A DNA stretch of 51,671 nucleotides from Hyphomicrobiales bacterium (GTDB lineage Bacteria; Pseudomonadota; Alphaproteobacteria; Rhizobiales; Aestuariivirgaceae): the NCBI GenBank assembly GCA_016792865.1, contig JAEUMJ010000069.1, positions 1-51,671 of the forward strand, given 5' to 3'. A program made the translations under genes and the position numbers. The notes under the pieces are model-generated. The model was not told the origin of the DNA, searched no databases, and saw only the letters and a list, made by a program, of their open reading frames with translations. This document shows positions 21,361-28,976 of the stretch, in pieces (the first letter of the stretch is position 1; the number at the start of each line of letters is the position of its first letter).

Positions 21361-21657
21361 TCACCTTGCCAAGAACCACGCATTCGCATCTTCGACGCGG
21401 TAGCGGTTGCTGCGCGGCAGCAGCGCTTCACAGGCGCCGTCGTTCTGGCACAGCAGCTTTTCGGTGCGGTTCTGCATGCGCAGGCGGAAGAGAAGGCCAC
21501 GATCTGTGTCTTCCGAACTGCACAGGGCATTGCGTGCGCAGAGGGAACGGTATTGCTGCAGCAAGTCAGAGGAGGCGCTGGCGTGAGAGCCTGTCCCCGT
21601 CGTGACGAGAAACGCCGACATGCACAATGCGAGCAGGGTTTTGCGGTGGGATGTCAT
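21361..21657 (-). CDS. Small exported protein of unknown function
   Basis: A 98-residue protein I do not recognise. Residues 1-29 look like a Sec signal peptide (TLLALCMSAFLVTTGTGSHA). The mature part is helical and polar and has four cysteines (LCARNALCSS, LLCQNDGACEALL) spaced as two pairs, suggesting two disulfides in the periplasm. The ATG at 21657 has AAGGA close upstream; an in-frame ATG at 21714 would place 19 residues before the signal and is less likely. It stands between the signalling operon and the cyclase gene. Nothing in the context gives it a function. Confidence 0.62.
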   Translation of the reverse strand: MTSHRKTLLALCMSAFLVTTGTGSHASASSDLLQQYRSLCARNALCSSEDTDRGLLFRLRMQNRTEKLLCQNDGACEALLPRSNRYRVEDANAWFLAR

Positions 21658-21774
21658 TTCCTTGTTCTCCTGGGCAGTGCCCGTTTCGCCAGCCTTGCGA
21701 CGAAGGATGAACAAGCTTGAGGCTTCTGTCTGTGAACTGCTTCACATCGGCTGATTCCTGCCGACAGCGTGAGA

Positions 21775-23556
21775 TCAGGGAATTCCCACCGCCCGCAGGT
21801 CGGCGACAAACTGGTCCGACAGCGCCTTGTCACGGAACGGCCCTGACCTGGCCCACTCTGCCGCCGTGAAGGCAGGATCGAGAAGCAGCACCGTTGCTGC
21901 CGCCTCCGCTCCGTCACGCTGCCGGCCCTGACGGTTCAGCGCGACGGAAAGGCCGATCCAGGCACGCACATAACCGGGGTGATGTTGCAGCACTTCCCGG
22001 TAGATTCGTTCGGCTTCCTCCACATCGCCCACGGCGAGGCAGGAGAGGCCGAGATTGGAGGCAATCCAAGCCGGTGCATGGGCGCTCAGGGAAAGGGCGC
22101 GGGTGTAGGAGGTGATGGCCGCGTCATGCTTGCCCATGAGATCACGCAATGCACCCTGATAACCCACCATCTCCGGGCTGTACGGAACGAGATCGACAGC
22201 CTTCTGCATGGCATCTTCCGCTTCCGGCCAGCGGTCCTGAAAATAGTGGAGGAAGCCCTGCAATCCGCAGGCATCGGGATGATCGGGCGCGATCCGGTTC
22301 ACGGCCTGACAGAGGCTTTCCGCCTCGCTGATCGATGTCTCGCTGTTGCGGCTCCATCCAAGGCGGACCTCGTCGAGATAGCAGAAGGCAAGTGCAACCG
22401 AAGCACTGAGATAGCCCGGATCGAGCTTCAGGGCCTCGCGGTAAAGTTCCTTCGCCTTTTCATGGCCCTGCCGCGTGAAGCGCCGCTCCATGTCGCGGGC
22501 CATCTGGAAGAGTTCCCATGCCTTGCCCGACTTCGCACCCCGGCGCCAAAGCCGGACCTGCTCTCCGTCCGTCAGGTGAAGCTGCAACGCCGAGACGATT
22601 TCCTGCGAGATCTGGTCCTGCACATCGAAGGAATGGTTGAGATCGCATTCGAAGCGGTCCGTCCACACGGTTGTGCCATCGGCACTGGACACGAGTCGCG
22701 CGATGATCCGGAGAAAGGGGCCCCTGCCCTGTACCGCACCGGAAAGGACATAATCATGCGGCACCGGAACCTGACCTGCAGGATCGGTCACCGTCACGGT
22801 GTTGCCGAGACGGGAAAGGATGAGCCGCACCTCTTCCACCAGGGCTTCGCCGAACAGCGCACCCTTGCGGGTGCGGTTGATGTTGCTGAAACTCTCAAGC
22901 CGCAGCACGGGCTTTCGCAGCCGCTTCAGGAGCTTGGGCGAAGTGCTGTGTTTCGTTTCCGACTGGCGGATGAAGGCGTCGTAATCCGCGAGGATGGCGC
23001 GATGGACCGGTATGGGCCGGTCGATGTTCTTGAGCTTCTTCGTGCCCAGGTCTTCGACAATCAGGTTCGCCGGCACCGCAAGATTCTCGAAACCGTCCGT
23101 GAAATAGATCTCCCCCGGTGCCGCAAGGGCCTGCAAGCGAGCCGCCACGTTGATGGCATTGCCGAACAGGTCGTCACCGATGGCATAGATCTCGCCATGC
23201 GCGATTCCGATCTTCCAGTGACCGGCGTTGGGAATCTGCGATTTCTTGTGATGCTCCAGCAGGCGCTCCTGCGCCCATGCCGCAGCCTCAAGCGCCTCCC
23301 CGAAATTCTCGAAGGTCGAGAGAACGAAGTCCCCCGGCGTCTGCAGGACCTGGCCGCTTTTCCGCCTGATGCAATTCGAGAGGATGGACCGGGTCTTGCG
23401 TAACACCGCAATGCCAGTCGAGACATCGCGATGCATCAGCTCGCTGTATGCCACCAGGTCGGCGGTGAGCACGGTGAGCTTCCGGCCGATGCCGGACAGA
23501 TACTCCCCCGAAATTTCCGGAAGGTCGTCGTCTCTCATGGAAGAACGCGCGGCCAT
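21775..23556 (-). CDS. Class III adenylate/guanylate cyclase with C-terminal TPR region
   Basis: A 593-residue cytoplasmic protein. Residues about 25-190 form a class III cyclase domain. The two metal-binding aspartates are Asp 33 (LTADLVAYS) and Asp 76 (TPGDFVLSTF), and the transition-state residues are Asn 136 and Arg 140 (GNAINVAARLQ). A loop IGIAHGEIYAIGDDLFG is normal for the bacterial group, so activity is expected. Residues about 220-330 resemble the linker domain of such proteins, and residues about 345-590 are helical TPR repeats, a likely protein-interaction sensor. It is divergent from the YcaO gene and lies 3.4 kb from a CRP-type regulator. cAMP is the likely product; cGMP cannot be ruled out. 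Confidence 0.87.
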   Translation of the reverse strand: MAARSSMRDDDLPEISGEYLSGIGRKLTVLTADLVAYSELMHRDVSTGIAVLRKTRSILSNCIRRKSGQVLQTPGDFVLSTFENFGEALEAAAWAQERLLEHHKKSQIPNAGHWKIGIAHGEIYAIGDDLFGNAINVAARLQALAAPGEIYFTDGFENLAVPANLIVEDLGTKKLKNIDRPIPVHRAILADYDAFIRQSETKHSTSPKLLKRLRKPVLRLESFSNINRTRKGALFGEALVEEVRLILSRLGNTVTVTDPAGQVPVPHDYVLSGAVQGRGPFLRIIARLVSSADGTTVWTDRFECDLNHSFDVQDQISQEIVSALQLHLTDGEQVRLWRRGAKSGKAWELFQMARDMERRFTRQGHEKAKELYREALKLDPGYLSASVALAFCYLDEVRLGWSRNSETSISEAESLCQAVNRIAPDHPDACGLQGFLHYFQDRWPEAEDAMQKAVDLVPYSPEMVGYQGALRDLMGKHDAAITSYTRALSLSAHAPAWIASNLGLSCLAVGDVEEAERIYREVLQHHPGYVRAWIGLSVALNRQGRQRDGAEAAATVLLLDPAFTAAEWARSGPFRDKALSDQFVADLRAVGIP

Positions 23557-23637
23557 GGATGTTCCACTTGTGGGCTGGTGGCCGCTTCTATACCATCACC
23601 ATTCCGGCGCGTCGATCAACGACTATGAGGCACCTGA

Positions 23638-24837
23638 ATGCCCCATGACGGTACCGCACTGTCCAACGTCATTGAACGCCTCCATCACATCGAGGTCGGA
23701 AACGGCTGCCCGTTCCACATTGCGGCAGCGGTGCTGAAACCCGATGCCTGGGGACGGCGCCGTGTGGTGAGCGGGAGGGGCCTGAGTGCCGATGAAGCGG
23801 CCCGCAATTGCCTTTTCGAGGCGGAGGAACGGCAGGGCGCGGTTTTCTCCGGGGATCATCCGACCCTGCGCGGTTCGGCCCGCAACCTTGAAGATGAAGC
23901 CGTAAATCCGTCACGACTCCTGCAGATCTCTGCGGCACAGTATCTCTCGCGCCATGACTGGAACGCCGCCGTTCCGGCAGACCATGCCCTGCCCGGTCCA
24001 TTCGACGAGCAGGCGGATGTCACATGGGTGGTGGCTTCATCGCTGCTCACCGGCCGGAGGACACTCGTGCCGGCGGCGTGTTGTTGGCTCGGATTCCCCC
24101 GCGCACTGGAAGAGGGTTTTCCGGTGCCGGATTCAAGCGGACTTGCCGCGGGGCCTGATCGGGATGATGCCATCGCGCGGGCAGTGGCCGAATGCGTGGA
24201 GCGGGATGCTGTCTCGATCTGGTGGTACAATCGCGTTGCAAGGCCCTCTGCCGCACTCACCGCTCGCGATCTCGCCGTCTGGCAGCCCTTCTCCGCGTGG
24301 GTCAGGCGCTGTGGCCGCCGCTGGTGGCTGTTGGACCTGACCCATGATCTGGCCCTGCCCGTTGTCGCGGCAGTGTCCTGCGATGAGCAGGGTTCGGCTC
24401 TTTCCCTCGGCTTTGGCTGTGCGCCCGACCTTGCCACAGCCGCCACCCAGGCCATGGGGGAACTGGTTCAGTTCGAGATGACGAGGCGGACACTCCGCAT
24501 CGAGGGCGAAGGCGCATATCCTCACCTTGTCTCATGGTGTTCCACGACAAGACTCCGCGACAATGAATTCCTCTCCCCCTCTGACGGGGCGCCTCGCATG
24601 CAAGCGCGCGGGTGGACGGCAGTGGATGCCCTCCGCCATGCCGGGCTTGAGGCCCATGTGGTTGATTGTCCCGGCCGTCGGAACGACGTGAAGATCGTTC
24701 GCGTGCTCGTGCCCGGCCTGAGGTCGATCTGGCCCCGCCTTGCACCGGGCCGCCTCTATGATGTTCCGGTGGCGCTGGGCTGGCGGGAAAAACCACTGGC
24801 AGAAACCGAACTCAATCCCGTTCCGATGCTTTACTAG
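23638..24837 (+). CDS. Stand-alone YcaO-family ATP-dependent cyclodehydratase-like enzyme
   Basis: A 399-residue YcaO protein. This family uses ATP to activate a backbone amide and makes azolines, thioamides or amidines. The three ATP/Mg motifs are intact: EAEER (Glu 61 to Arg 65), AECVERDA (Glu 185, Glu 188, Arg 189) preceded by SSGLAAGPDRDDAI, and GELVQ (Glu 275, Gln 278). The C-terminus ends NPVPMLY, a partial form of the proline-rich tail seen in azoline-forming members. No E1-like partner, TfuA or dehydrogenase gene is adjacent. The ATG has GAGG seven bases upstream. It is followed 26 bases later by a GNAT acetyltransferase, probably in one operon. The substrate is unknown; the neighbouring 128-residue protein is a candidate. 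Confidence 0.88.
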   Translation: MPHDGTALSNVIERLHHIEVGNGCPFHIAAAVLKPDAWGRRRVVSGRGLSADEAARNCLFEAEERQGAVFSGDHPTLRGSARNLEDEAVNPSRLLQISAAQYLSRHDWNAAVPADHALPGPFDEQADVTWVVASSLLTGRRTLVPAACCWLGFPRALEEGFPVPDSSGLAAGPDRDDAIARAVAECVERDAVSIWWYNRVARPSAALTARDLAVWQPFSAWVRRCGRRWWLLDLTHDLALPVVAAVSCDEQGSALSLGFGCAPDLATAATQAMGELVQFEMTRRTLRIEGEGAYPHLVSWCSTTRLRDNEFLSPSDGAPRMQARGWTAVDALRHAGLEAHVVDCPGRRNDVKIVRVLVPGLRSIWPRLAPGRLYDVPVALGWREKPLAETELNPVPMLY

Positions 24838-24863
24838 AAAGGAATACCCGGAAAGGACACCAG

Positions 24864-25451
24864 ATGCCCGTGCGGTTGCGCCCAGCGAGGAAAGGGGATG
24901 CGGCCCAGCTTGCCGTTCTGATGGACATTGCAAGCCAAGGGCTTGTGTCGCATCTCTGGAGCAGCCTGGCCCTGCCCGGCGAGTCACCCTTCGAGATCGG
25001 CCGTAGCAGGATCATTGAACGTTCGGCGCTTCCTTCGCACTACTCGAACTGGACCGTTGCGGAAGTGTCGGGTGATGTGGCTGCCGCTTCGGCGGGCTAC
25101 CGGGTGCCGGACCCCTATGACGCGGATGACAGCGGCGAACTGCCCGACGCCTATGCGCCGCTCCTCGAACTTGAGGCGCTGGCCTCCGGTGACTGGTTCC
25201 TCGCCGTGCTTGCCGTGTTTCCGGAATTCCGCCGCCGAGGGCTGGCGAAACGCATGCTGCTTGCGGCGGAGGTGGAAGCGAAACGCAGCGGCGCCAGGTC
25301 AATCGCCCTGACGGTGAGCCGGGCGAACAGCATGGCGCGGGAGCTTTACCTGCAATCGGGCTTCATCGAGACGGCACGGCGCAAGCGGGTGTTCCTGGGC
25401 GGCGCCGGTCGCTGCGACGATGAATGGCTGCTGCTGCGGAAGTCACTCTGA
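24864..25451 (+). CDS. GNAT-family N-acetyltransferase
   Basis: A 195-residue acetyltransferase. The fold is visible as an N-terminal LRPARKGDAAQLAVLM strand-helix, a central FLAVLAVFPEFRRRGLAKRM holding the acetyl-CoA pyrophosphate loop (RRRGLA), and the C-terminal VSRANSMARELYLQSGF segment. It is cytoplasmic and complete. The ATG at 24864 follows GGAAAGGA. It lies 26 bases after the YcaO stop in the same direction, so it may modify the same substrate or protect against the product, as acetyltransferases do in several peptide-modification clusters. That pairing is inference. The gene converges on the small-protein gene with only 11 bases between stops. Confidence 0.83.
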   Translation: MPVRLRPARKGDAAQLAVLMDIASQGLVSHLWSSLALPGESPFEIGRSRIIERSALPSHYSNWTVAEVSGDVAAASAGYRVPDPYDADDSGELPDAYAPLLELEALASGDWFLAVLAVFPEFRRRGLAKRMLLAAEVEAKRSGARSIALTVSRANSMARELYLQSGFIETARRKRVFLGGAGRCDDEWLLLRKSL

Positions 25452-25462
25452 GGCGGAGCGCC

Positions 25463-25849
25463 TCATCTTCCGCATCCGAAGAGAACGGCGGTTCCGAGAT
25501 CCTTTTCCTTGCGTTCCCGGTCCTCCGGGGACTGATTGTCGTAATAGTCCCGCTTCCAGCGCTCCCATGTCTCAACACCGGCACCACCCGCATCCGGCGT
25601 CGGGATGCTCAGCCAGACAAGCCGCGTATTCTCGTCAAGGTCCGTGTCGAAGACAATGTCGATCTCGATCTTCTTCTTGTTGTAGCTCCTGTCCTCGAAA
25701 TCGATCAGCGGCGAGATCTCCGCAATCAATGCCTTGCGGTCGATGACGGGCGCTTCCGGATTTTCCTTCATCGCCCTGTCCCAGGCCCGGAAGATGGCCT
25801 GCCCGATCAGCTTGCTGCTTTCCTTGTCCTTGAGCTTCAGTCTTGCCAT
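25463..25849 (-). CDS. 128-residue protein with a single C-terminal cysteine; candidate substrate
   Basis: I do not recognise a named family. The protein is hydrophilic and strongly charged. Residues 1-50 are helical (SSKLIGQAIFRAWDRAM), the middle has a beta-like stretch KKKIEIDIVFDTDLDEN, then comes a Gly-rich turn and an acidic/basic helix. It ends GTAVLFGCGR, and Cys 126 is its only cysteine. A long charged leader and a short Gly/Cys tail is the layout of ribosomally made modified peptides, but the leader is long and could equally be a small folded protein. The ATG has GAGGA upstream and follows the protease stop by 18 bases, so the two are cotranscribed. There is no signal peptide. Confidence 0.7.
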   Translation of the reverse strand: MARLKLKDKESSKLIGQAIFRAWDRAMKENPEAPVIDRKALIAEISPLIDFEDRSYNKKKIEIDIVFDTDLDENTRLVWLSIPTPDAGGAGVETWERWKRDYYDNQSPEDRERKEKDLGTAVLFGCGR

Positions 25850-25867
25850 GTCTCTGTCCTCGATGTC

Positions 25868-26806
25868 CTAGAATCCGGAAACGACGAAGCGCGACCGGTC
25901 CAACCCCAGGGGGCCGGAGGGCGTGCGCGACGCCTGCATGAAATAGGTCTCGTCGATGCTGCCGGGGATGCCACTGACCACGAGGCCCACCAGATTGCGG
26001 TCAGCGTCGAGGACAGGCGCTCCTGAGTCACCTTCCGCCCCGAAGTACCCGCTGACGACCTTGACCAGATACGGCGTCGGATCGCTGGTCGTTGCCCGCC
26101 AGCCCCAACCGAGATCGCGGCCACTGGTCAGCCCCGTCGTGGCACCATACTTCGAGACACGATCGCCCTTGCGCGAGCGCCTCACCCCCGTGATGGCACC
26201 AAGGCCGCGTGTCTCCAGTGCCTTGTAGGGAACGCTGGCGTCGATATCGGCCCCTGCCAGATCAATCCACTTCGCGCCCACAGGCGGCACGATATTCCAT
26301 TTGAGATACATGGACTGCGGGAAATGAGGAGTGGATGCAGTGGCGCTTCGGGGGAAATCCAGTACGTGATTGCAGGTCAGGATCCGCCCGGCACAATCCA
26401 TGCCTTCCACCGTGATGCCGCTTCCGGCAGGAGCGGCGAAGGAAATTGTTCCCCATTGCGTGGCGACGTCATTCCAGACCGGATCGCCCCCCATCAACGG
26501 ACCGCTGTATTGCAGTGGCGGAGGAACCGGGCCGCCCAGCAGGCGCGGGCGGCGCTCATCACGGGTCACCACCAGTTTCAGGGTCACGGACTTGCCGCTC
26601 GGCAAGCGGACCTCCACGGCGTCTGGAAGCGGTGCGGCACCGGACGGCTTGAACGGCACCGTTACCGGAACGCGATCCTCCCTCACCGGGCCGATTGCAT
26701 TGATGTCGGAATACCCGGCCTTCTTCAGCACTGAAAGCACCTGGCGCAGGATCTCGATGTCGTCATCGTCTTCGGAATATTCGGGAGTTTCTTCGCTACC
26801 TGTCAT
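25868..26806 (-). CDS. Cytoplasmic trypsin-like serine protease
   Basis: A 312-residue protein of the chymotrypsin fold. The putative triad is His 147 (LTCNHVLDF), Asp 187 or 189 (AGADIDASV) and Ser 261 (GDSGAPVLD), followed by the C-terminal NLVGLVVSG strand. There is no signal peptide; instead it begins with an acidic stretch (YSEDDDDIEIL) and a roughly 100-residue N-terminal region that could bind a partner or act as a pro-segment. Cytoplasmic trypsin-like proteases are uncommon in bacteria. The ATG at 26806 has AGGAAAG about nine bases upstream; a longer frame to 26947 lacks this. It lies directly upstream of the 128-residue protein gene, suggesting that it cleaves or matures that protein. 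Confidence 0.83.
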   Translation of the reverse strand: MTGSEETPEYSEDDDDIEILRQVLSVLKKAGYSDINAIGPVREDRVPVTVPFKPSGAAPLPDAVEVRLPSGKSVTLKLVVTRDERRPRLLGGPVPPPLQYSGPLMGGDPVWNDVATQWGTISFAAPAGSGITVEGMDCAGRILTCNHVLDFPRSATASTPHFPQSMYLKWNIVPPVGAKWIDLAGADIDASVPYKALETRGLGAITGVRRSRKGDRVSKYGATTGLTSGRDLGWGWRATTSDPTPYLVKVVSGYFGAEGDSGAPVLDADRNLVGLVVSGIPGSIDETYFMQASRTPSGPLGLDRSRFVVSGF

Positions 26807-26832
26807 CGCCAGTTCTTTCCTGAACGAAATTG

Positions 26833-26852
26833 GGCGGCACGACCCTGCCGCC
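26833..26852. promoter_or_regulatory. Hairpin/inverted repeat between protease and CRP-type genes
   Basis: GGCGGCA and TGCCGCC (seven perfect pairs) flank a six-base spacer, 27 bases before the protease start. It may be an operator or a leader hairpin for the minus-strand protease operon. Confidence 0.4.
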
Positions 26853-26926
26853 ATCAGTATGCGCCCCGGCGAAAGATTTGCTGAAAACACCTGCATTGGC
26901 AAGGCCGTGCGTGACTGAGGGAAGGA

Positions 26927-26954
26927 TTGCCTCCGCATGGGCCGCATCTATAGT
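26927..26954 (+). promoter_or_regulatory. Probable promoter of the CRP-type regulator gene
   Basis: TTGCCT at 26927-26932 and TATAGT at 26949-26954 are separated by 16 bases. This would give a very short leader of about 13 bases that includes the AGAGGGG ribosome site before the ATG at 26974. Confidence 0.5.
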
Positions 26955-26973
26955 GATGGCAGAGGGGTGGACC

Positions 26974-27681
26974 ATGCATTCACGCAACGATCGCGGAGCG
27001 ACCGCCGGCAGAGATACGCTGGAACTCGCACGGCTCTTCGCGCGTGTACCGGAGGAGATCCGGCAACGCCTTCTTGCCGCCGCGCCGCCGCTGAACCTCA
27101 GGAAGGGCGCAAGCCTGTTCGAGCGCGGCGACAGCGGCGGCACGATGTATGTGGTGCAGGACGGGCGCATCGAGATTTCCATCATCAACGATGCGGGCCG
27201 CAAGATCGTCCTGAACCAGGTTGGTGCCGGGCATTGCGTGGGTGAGATCAGCATGATCGACGGCAAGGCCAGAACCGCCTCGGCCATCGCACTGGAAACC
27301 ACCAGGCTTTTCTCCGTTCCGCGGGCTGCCTTTGTCGACGCGGCGGCGGCCTGCCCGCAACTCTCGATCAATCTCATGGAAATCCTCTGTGAACGCCTGC
27401 GTTGGGTGAGTGACTCGGTTGAGGAATATGCGCTCCATTCCTTCGAGCTTCGACTGGCCCGCCGCCTGCTGGTGCTGAACCGGAGTTTCGGTGACGGGGA
27501 AAAGAGCATCGGGATTACCCAGACAGACCTTGCCGATTTCGCGGGCGCCACGCGCGAGTCCGTGAACAAGACATTGATGCAATGGAAACAGGATGGCCTG
27601 GTGGAGGTTCAGCGCGGCAGGATTTTCCTGAAGGAAATGCAGGTTCTGGAGCGCATTGCCTTCGGCGATCTGGCGGACTGA
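26974..27681 (+). CDS. CRP/FNR-family transcriptional regulator with cyclic-nucleotide-binding domain
   Basis: A 235-residue regulator. Residues about 20-135 form the cyclic-nucleotide-binding barrel. Its phosphate-binding cassette reads GEISMIDGKARTASA, in which the Glu and the Arg-Thr that hold cAMP in CRP have matching residues. Residues about 140-165 are the dimer helix. Residues about 185-220 form the winged helix (ITQTDLADFAGATRESVNKT). There are no FNR-type N-terminal cysteines, so a nucleotide rather than oxygen signal is likely. The ATG follows AGAGGGG. It is divergent from the protease operon. With the cyclase at 21775-23556 it could form a local cAMP circuit controlling the genes between them. 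Confidence 0.88.
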   Translation: MHSRNDRGATAGRDTLELARLFARVPEEIRQRLLAAAPPLNLRKGASLFERGDSGGTMYVVQDGRIEISIINDAGRKIVLNQVGAGHCVGEISMIDGKARTASAIALETTRLFSVPRAAFVDAAAACPQLSINLMEILCERLRWVSDSVEEYALHSFELRLARRLLVLNRSFGDGEKSIGITQTDLADFAGATRESVNKTLMQWKQDGLVEVQRGRIFLKEMQVLERIAFGDLAD

Positions 27682-27866
27682 AGCGAACGCGCCTTTTTGC
27701 GGAGCTTGGCCACCTGAAGATCCGTGACCTCTGCCACCTCGGCGGGCGGAACAGGCGGGTCCTGCGCCGGCATCACCGGCTCAAGCCGGGTTGCCACGAA
27801 GCTCTTGCTGACCGGGTCGAAATCGAGCCTGTAGCTGTAGCCCTTGAATTCATGATGGTTCTTCAT
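27609..27866 (-). CDS. Small protein of unknown function coupled to an EamA gene
   Basis: An 85-residue protein I do not recognise. The first half has an aromatic pattern (FKGYSYRLDFDPVSKSFVATR), then a Pro-rich linker (PVMPAQDPPVPPAEVAEV), and the last 30 residues are very basic. A GGAGGA ribosome site lies five bases before the ATG, and the ATG overlaps the EamA stop (ATGA), which supports real translation. The last 73 bases run antisense to the 3' end of the CRP-type gene, so the basic tail is encoded opposite another gene and may be incidental. It is likely cytoplasmic. Confidence 0.6.
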   Translation of the reverse strand: MKNHHEFKGYSYRLDFDPVSKSFVATRLEPVMPAQDPPVPPAEVAEVTDLQVAKLRKKARSLQSARSPKAMRSRTCISFRKILPR

Positions 27867-28852
27867 TCAGTCCTCCGTGTGTAGGAAGGTTTGACCCGGC
27901 GCGACGGCACCGGAACGGGACGGGATGCAGCACTGCCGTGAAAGGACAGGCTGCGCATATCCTCTTGCGGGCGCCCCCGCAGCCAATCGGCGATCCATGC
28001 GGGACGTTGCACCAGCACGATTCCGGCCGAGACGAGAACCGCCCCGGAAGCACTCGTCGCCGTCAGCAGTTCATCGAGCAGGAAATAGGCGGCAATGGCA
28101 CCCACCACCGCTTCGCCGCTGCCGATGATGGCGGCCTCGCTGGCGCTTGTGTGATTCTGGGCAACGATCTGGATGTAATAGGCGCCCGCCGTTGCAAACA
28201 GTCCGAGGAACAGGAGTTCGGGCAAGGCTGCGGCAAGGCGGGCCAGCGTGACCTGCTCGAAGGTGAGGCCGAGCGGCAAGGTGATCGCCGCCGTGAAGGA
28301 GAATTGCAGGAGCGTGAGTGCGGAGGCATCGCCACCCTTTCTCGCGTATTCGCCGACATGGATCATCCAGAAGGCATAGGCGACCGCGGAGGCCAGGCAG
28401 ATGGCATCGCCCGGCCGGACGCCGTGAAGCGAGCCACCGGACATCAGCATCGCGCCGGCGAGAATGAGCAAGGCCGCAAGCCAGACAATCACATGCGGGC
28501 GCTGCTTCAGCAGCACCCAGGCCAGAACGGGCGTGATGACAGTGGTGGTATTGATGAAGAACCCGGCATTGGTGACGCTGGTCAGGCCATAGCCGATCTG
28601 CGACAGGGTGACGGCGACGCAGAACGAGATCGAAGCTGCAATCGCGGACAGGCGTGCGGGCTTGGCGACAAGGCCGTTCAGCCGCGATGTCGTTCGCAAG
28701 ACCGGAATGAACACCAGCGCCGCAATGAGGGACCGCAGCCCCACAGCCGTGAAGGGACCGACATGCACAAGCACGGTTTGCAGCGCCACATTGCCCGTTC
28801 CCCAGAGGATAGCGGCAAGGATCATCAACCGGTTTGCCTGACCATGTGACAC
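27863..28852 (-). CDS. EamA/DMT-family transporter with long C-terminal tail
   Basis: A 329-residue membrane protein with ten helices in two EamA repeats (about 8-140 and 150-285). It opens MILAAILWGTGNVALQ and has ASEAAIIGSGEAVVGAIAAY in the second repeat. It carries an extra 40-residue basic C-terminal tail (RGRPQEDMRSLSFHG and on). The start is GTG with AGGGAAG about eight bases upstream. Substrate and direction are unknown; amino acids or metabolites are usual. Its stop overlaps the start of the small protein gene. Confidence 0.84.
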   Translation of the reverse strand: MSHGQANRLMILAAILWGTGNVALQTVLVHVGPFTAVGLRSLIAALVFIPVLRTTSRLNGLVAKPARLSAIAASISFCVAVTLSQIGYGLTSVTNAGFFINTTTVITPVLAWVLLKQRPHVIVWLAALLILAGAMLMSGGSLHGVRPGDAICLASAVAYAFWMIHVGEYARKGGDASALTLLQFSFTAAITLPLGLTFEQVTLARLAAALPELLFLGLFATAGAYYIQIVAQNHTSASEAAIIGSGEAVVGAIAAYFLLDELLTATSASGAVLVSAGIVLVQRPAWIADWLRGRPQEDMRSLSFHGSAASRPVPVPSRRVKPSYTRRTE

Positions 28853-28976
28853 GCGGGGCTTCCCTGTTTCGCAGGCGTACCGGGGAATGCCGGTTCGCTG
28901 TTCTCAGGGAATTTGGGGCGCGGCGGGGCCCTTGTCTGTGAGGGGCTTCACATTGCGCAGGCCCATGGCCGTGACG

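Follow-up and report, generated by a model that had tools for sequence, protein, structure and literature searches.

Five adjoining genes in a Hyphomicrobiales bacterium probably serve to edit the last few residues of a small protein, as judged from gene order and sequence conservation. They lie within a 51,671-nt stretch of DNA (the window; Aestuariivirgaceae, GCA_016792865.1, contig JAEUMJ010000069.1, forward strand). The genes encode a protein with a nucleotide-cyclase-like domain and a TPR region (cyclase-TPR), a stand-alone YcaO enzyme, a GNAT acetyltransferase, a 128-residue protein that we call P128 and a trypsin-like serine protease (Table 1). We lean towards the view that this block is a mobile cassette in which YcaO would modify the cysteine in the fixed tail of P128, under regulatory control.

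The core of this description goes back to an initial annotation of the window, which listed an intact stand-alone YcaO with its ATP motifs, a GNAT gene 26 bases behind it and, convergent to both, a protease gene together with that of a 128-residue protein having one Cys three residues from its end. All of this agrees with what we find. The YcaO match to PF02624 is full, and G46, G48, E61, E64, R65, G168, E185, E188, R189, D190 and E275, which we take to belong to the ATP/Mg motifs, are invariant in 12 aligned YcaOs. The coordinates and strands of the other genes agree, the protease gene lies 18 bases ahead of P128, and the single Cys is residue 126 of 128.

Recurrence of the block

The same order and orientation (cyclase-TPR pointing away from YcaO and GNAT, P128 and protease converging on them) was found with tblastn and the window proteins in two further genomes of the family. 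One is a Hyphomicrobiales metagenome-assembled genome (L002 and L040, a single contig counted once and taken to belong to G046) and the other is G005, from the window's genus (L039). Local-alignment identities to the window are 47-50% for YcaO, 57-59% for the cyclase, 48-53% for GNAT and 43-45% for P128, and conservation of the block across the three genomes spans 33-59%. The initial annotation had expected the YcaO, protease and P128 genes to keep company elsewhere; in both genomes they do, along with GNAT and cyclase. The genes flanking the block differ among the three genomes, which suggests that the block moves as a unit. With order and orientation kept between different flanks, the five genes appear to be a self-contained mobile cassette.

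P128 follows the block closely. Among 69 family genomes searched, strong matches occur only in the three genomes with the YcaO block. Two weak partial matches (G049 and G051; E 0.006-0.009), both without the tail and in genomes without YcaO, were treated as chance. A P128 profile matched one of the 397 genomes of an order-wide sample, the window's own. Plasmids searched with P128 gave no match, and neither did viral contigs searched with YcaO and P128. YcaO is patchy in the genus (8/37 genomes). The window genome has one YcaO and two PF00211 cyclases, one of which adjoins that YcaO.

The tail of P128

Compared with the window copy, the three further P128 proteins have 31-48% identity. Invariant positions number 21 and include all of the last four (GCGR). 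By these alignments, the P128 body drifts while its last four residues stay fixed. The codons for GCGR differ among the three P128 genes compared while the residues do not, so the constraint acts on the protein. The fourth P128 comes from G046, which has a YcaO block elsewhere and holds this second copy on a separate contig, immediately after a second protease (32% identical). The orphan pair (L099 8729-10112) has the tail AVLFGCGR and is flanked by genes that by eye look like ruvB and ybgC/tol, with no YcaO in the 20 kb read.

Against solved structures P128 gave a single match (E 0.32), taken as chance. AlphaFold2 models built from two sequences each (mean confidence score, pLDDT, 55.8 for P128 and 37.7 for the protease) were too poor for use.

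The YcaO clade and its small Cys-ended partners

What kind of YcaO is this? A tree of 41 sequences splits into 17 and 24 rows with support of 100/98 (midpoint root, for drawing only; L045, L050 and L051 are outside the tree). The 17-row clade, here the azoline clade, holds eight non-TfuA family loci together with nine relatives found in Richelia, Myxococcales, Acidobacteria, Pseudoalteromonas and Psychromonas. Among the other 24 rows TfuA lies within 1 kb in 23, and one ends at a contig edge. By its position in the tree, the window YcaO is grouped apart from thioamide-type enzymes but without the N-terminal partner of its relatives: in all eight gene-called relatives (L008, the ninth, was not called) YcaO forms the C-terminal portion of a protein of 639-752 residues. 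The best match of the window YcaO is TIGR03604 (SagD-type) with 167.5 bits, below the curated cut-off of 219.25.

The initial annotation had also stated that the usual YcaO partners (E1-like, TfuA, dehydrogenase) are absent. This stands for TfuA: no TfuA, peroxidase or C11 match lies near the window, and TfuA is present at 25 of the 35 family YcaO loci (family counts use 35 of 37 rows, the fragment G037:C644 and G037:C477 being dropped). It largely stands for the E1-like/RRE partner, as TIGR03882 has no match in the whole genome at E 0.001, with a weak positive control (detected in 5 of 14 control genomes, in none above the cut-off). The dehydrogenase was not searched by family. The protease match is sub-threshold (Trypsin_2, 24.0 bits against a cut-off of 27.6); its His147, Asp182 and Ser261 are invariant in the three intact copies.

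A further clue is that P128 has counterparts. All eight azoline-clade family loci in the tree have, within 2.3 kb of YcaO, a small protein with Cys in its last three residues. At the sister loci the tails read RKCR or RRCR (L048, L049, L052), TKCR (L044) and NQCI (L043), the last belonging to a protein 2.2 kb from a YcaO truncated at the edge of its contig. Of the 508 genes called in YcaO neighbourhoods, 6 encode a C-x(0,1)-R end, and all six are Cys-tail proteins beside azoline-clade YcaOs (the L002 P128, missed in gene calling and read separately, is outside this count). Cys in the last three residues is found in 10 of 186 complete small called proteins. Seven are azoline-clade partners and three belong to two of the 24 TfuA-clade loci: two proteins in L054, 3.6 and 8.3 kb from YcaO, and TfuA itself in L073. 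This provides a natural contrast, with C-x(0,1)-R-tailed partners beside non-TfuA YcaOs and none seen with TfuA YcaOs.

Proteins of the animal haem peroxidase family (L048 7585-9273, L049 1720-3330, L052 10163-11803 and L044 11469-12956) also adjoin an azoline-clade YcaO and a Cys-Arg-ended small protein, possibly a peroxidase-tailored version. The assignment comes from Pfam for L048 and L044 and from 38-39% similarity to L048 for the other two. None of the four loci matched either protease query.

Cyclase, regulator and palindromes

The initial annotation placed a cyclase and a CRP-type regulator at the two borders. Both are present, the regulator with clear domains (Table 1) and the cyclase with a borderline PF00211 match (18.7 bits in one scan, 21.7-22.2 in another, cut-off 21.9). 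The cyclase domain keeps both metal-binding Asp residues and an NVAAR-type motif, in which Asn and Arg presumably act in the transition state. In all three cassettes a Gln takes the place of what we assume to be the purine-contacting Lys. Of the proposed cyclic AMP-linked system, the association of cyclase and CRP stands and cyclic AMP itself is unproven, given this Gln.

A cyclase-TPR-like or SARP-TPR-like protein lies within 8 kb of YcaO in 28/35 family loci, counted as tblastn matches (E 1e-6) to a query set, with Pfam run for the window, L044 and L048; for L042 and L046, similarity and inspection by eye gave the cyclase-like proteins their name. Seven loci lack such a protein. In five of them (L058, L062, L067, L069, L070) the sequence runs out within 4.3 kb of YcaO in one direction or both; the true misses are L045 and L065. 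Genomes of the genus have 0-11 PF00211 cyclases each, so the linkage to YcaO is not background there; the argument is weaker in other genera, with up to 41. These counts understate cyclase-like proteins because degenerate members are missed: G004 has no PF00211 match, and G028 has one, on another contig.

Orthologues of the regulator (49-57% identity, E 1e-25) were found exactly in G004, G026 and G028, making 4/37 genus genomes with the window's. Each adjoins YcaO and a cyclase-like protein (Fisher p 0.001, relatedness not corrected). The window has two copies of the palindrome TGTGA-N6-TCACA where 0.02 would be expected, and these sites, before the genes for the small protein orf117 and the transporter EamA1, are two of five perfect copies in the 3.4-Mb genome. 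The orthologue-bearing G004 and G028 have no perfect palindrome on the cassette contig; G026 has one of its two there, but between convergent gene ends. G005 (66% complete, CRP orthologue not detected) has ten, so the palindrome is not specific to the window regulator. The YcaO locus of G028 has an orf117 homologue flanked by EamA and CRP (L042 4109-4366; 30% identity over 87 aa, E 6e-8 to 7e-8), and a one-mismatch palindrome, TGTGATCTGGATTACA, lies upstream of this homologue. Another contig of G005 encodes an EamA homologue whose called start is 113 bp downstream of a perfect palindrome. EamA (E 1e-30) is present in 7/8 YcaO-positive and 5/29 YcaO-negative genus genomes (p 0.0005).

Two minor observations concern similar sites. 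In L093 2109-3286 (a G004 contig) the surroundings of the palindrome TGTGAAGCAGATCACA encode a small protein that contains Cys and part of a DMT-like transporter (by eye), like the window genes with CRP sites. The gap from YcaO to the Cys-tail gene holds an 11-bp direct repeat of SARP type, TTCACG-N5-TTCACG, at L049 4503-4519 and 4589-4605 and at L052 8961-8977, with only a near match at about 10440 in L048. Of the eight perfect repeats in eight genus genomes, three fall in such gaps.

Relation to known systems

We have not found this arrangement described in the literature searched, and it would form a coherent variation on YcaO-based modification. Outside the family, the nearest YcaOs (29-39% identical) adjoin NHLP/TIGR03795 (BMA_0021 family) clusters for thiazole/oxazole-modified microcins. 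These have a long precursor, in most cases with a short Cys-bearing C-terminal tip. Of four neighbour proteins scanned, those of L004 and L006 pass TIGR03795, that of L009 reaches 40.8 against a cut-off of 41 and that of L003 matches TIGR03793 below cut-off. P128 matches neither family. The window YcaO also stands alone instead of ending a longer protein, and the window adds a protease, a GNAT and a cyclase.

Two characterized enzymes offer partial parallels. In azoline formation by MprC on MprE7, YcaO engages a structured NHLP leader by protein/protein contacts (PMC12455567). The likeness is a YcaO on a folded leader; MprC has an RRE domain (PMC12455567), whereas the window YcaO has none. E. 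coli YcaO, also stand-alone and RRE-less, thioamidates the folded ribosomal protein uL16 (PMC13063428), and a folded substrate is likewise proposed for the window. There the substrate is ribosomal and the product a thioamide, whereas the window encodes a dedicated protein, genetically linked to YcaO, that has its Cys at the terminus.

Within the family, the YcaO-TfuA thioamide-type loci share the cyclase-TPR-like or SARP-TPR-like protein and sometimes a CRP and a protease. They differ in having TfuA, in their tree clade and in having no called protein with a C-x(0,1)-R end. Adenylate cyclases are mentioned in ATP-grasp clusters with YcaO and TfuA in PMC8939145, so the nearness of a cyclase to YcaO has some precedent.

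Proposed mechanism and alternatives

We propose that P128 is the substrate of YcaO. The enzyme, without an RRE or E1 domain, would bind the folded P128 body directly and spend ATP on the Gly125-Cys126 backbone, most likely forming a thiazoline (-18 Da). More tentatively, the protease might then free a short modified tail, GNAT might cap it and EamA1 might export it. The cyclase-TPR protein and the CRP-type regulator would switch the gene set, the regulator acting via the two TGTGA-N6-TCACA sites. If this is true, an azoline-clade YcaO dispenses with the usual leader-binding partner and acts on a folded, invariant-tailed protein, an unusual form of known peptide-editing chemistry. The finding also links YcaO chemistry throughout a bacterial family with regulators of the cyclic-nucleotide type or SARP regulators.

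Several results weigh against this proposal. Full cassettes number only three so far, one of which (L039 in G005) has a broken reading frame for the protease. The surroundings of the other two P128 blocks gave no match to CRP or EamA, and no exact palindrome precedes YcaO, cyclase or protease (the cyclase-YcaO and protease-CRP gaps were scanned). Three P128s gave no TIGR03793 or TIGR03795 match up to E 10 (NCBIfam), hhalign of P128 with NHLP-like precursors reached a probability of 11%, and hhalign detected no clear homology between P128 and P125 or P142, small proteins of other cassettes, or between the latter two. L045, a ninth non-TfuA locus with a fused YcaO, has no TPR regulator and no Cys-ended small protein among its called complete genes. 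Lastly, the suggested azoline chemistry is taken from clade placement only.

The main alternative, unlikely as it seems to us, is that P128 stays whole and its modified GCGR tail regulates or inhibits the partner protease, which would make a YcaO-controlled protease switch. A trypsin-like pocket could accommodate the C-terminal Arg. In 4/4 cases, one without a nearby YcaO, P128 is paired with a protease, and a clostripain-type protease pairs with Arg-ending small proteins in the TfuA-type loci L041 and L042. The tail is also invariant, unlike the variable cores of most ribosomally synthesized and post-translationally modified peptides. However, GNAT and the haem peroxidases of sister loci L044, L048, L049 and L052 look like tailoring enzymes, and the Arg specificity of the protease is only putative.

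Somewhat less likely again, YcaO modifies another protein or produces a thioamide, with P128 as a neighbour that has a regulatory or structural role. The tie between YcaO and P128 comes from linkage, and action of an RRE-less stand-alone YcaO on a housekeeping protein is a known mode (PMC13063428). Nevertheless, TfuA is missing and the window YcaO falls outside the TfuA clade; an enzyme found in 8/37 genus genomes does not look like a housekeeping one; and strong P128 matches are confined to YcaO-block genomes, with the terminal Cys conserved.

We give little credence to a role in conflict or defence, with the cyclase-like protein as the sensor of a threat and the protease as effector. The patchy, mobile distribution would suit it, as would weak PADLOC matches of the cyclase to PycC (6.6e-5) and of the regulator, via its cNMP-binding part, to Pycsar-type effectors, but YcaO, GNAT, P128 and protease have no PADLOC match and the CRP-type sites precede a transporter and a secreted protein. 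Chance adjacency of separate transcription units, which genes on both strands and variable flanks might suggest, is the least credible by far, being contradicted by the order and orientation kept in three genomes, the confinement of P128 and the placement of one of two cyclases beside the sole YcaO.

Beyond the mobile cassette that we favour, one could imagine a family of signalling circuits in Hyphomicrobiales-type bacteria. YcaOs would make short modified peptides from the fixed C-terminal tails of dedicated proteins, TPR-cyclase or TPR-SARP proteins would sense them and relay to CRP, and the whole would amount to a pheromone with cyclic-nucleotide output. This is a long shot.

Features of the window and neighbouring genes

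CRP-type palindromes precede orf117 and EamA1, so the functional unit may extend past the five genes to include both.

Table 1. Features in and around the five-gene block (positions in the window).
Feature	Position	Strand	Basis and remarks
orf117, small secreted-looking protein	21361-21714	-	start probably near 21657; by eye, signal-peptide-like
Perfect CRP-type palindrome TGTGAACTGCTTCACA, upstream of orf117	21731-21746		motif scan
Cyclase-TPR, class III nucleotide-cyclase-like domain and TPR region	21775-23538/23556	-	Pfam, alignment
YcaO, stand-alone, 399 aa, non-TfuA SagD-like clade, no RRE/E1 domain, C-terminus NPVPMLY	23638-24837	+	PF02624 8.5e-56
GNAT acetyltransferase	24864-25451	+	Pfam; 48-53% identity to GNATs of both other cassettes
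P128, proposed folded substrate protein, 128 residues, one Cys	25463-25849	-	profile and alignment
Codons of invariant C-terminal tail Gly-Cys-Gly-Arg	25466-25477	-	same residues in 4/4 P128 proteins
Trypsin-like serine protease, no obvious signal peptide, His/Asp/Ser kept	25868-26806	-	sub-threshold Pfam, alignment
CRP/FNR-type regulator (cNMP_binding and HTH_Crp_2)	26956-27681	+	Pfam; start likelier at 26956 than 26830
EamA1, EamA/DMT transporter, proposed exporter	27863-28825	-	named from 41% similarity to L042 EamA (Pfam)
Perfect CRP-type palindrome TGTGAGGGGCTTCACA, 112 bp upstream of likely EamA1 start	28937-28952		motif scan

An 85-aa reading frame at 27609-27866 overlaps the end of the regulator gene and by eye resembles a 73-aa frame adjoining the EamA of L052. 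Elsewhere in the family, a TfuA-type set recurs in L046, L050, L051, L071 and L073. It comprises a large cyclase-like protein, YcaO, TfuA, a 341-399-aa protein (that of L046 has no Pfam match) and a 159-245-aa protein.

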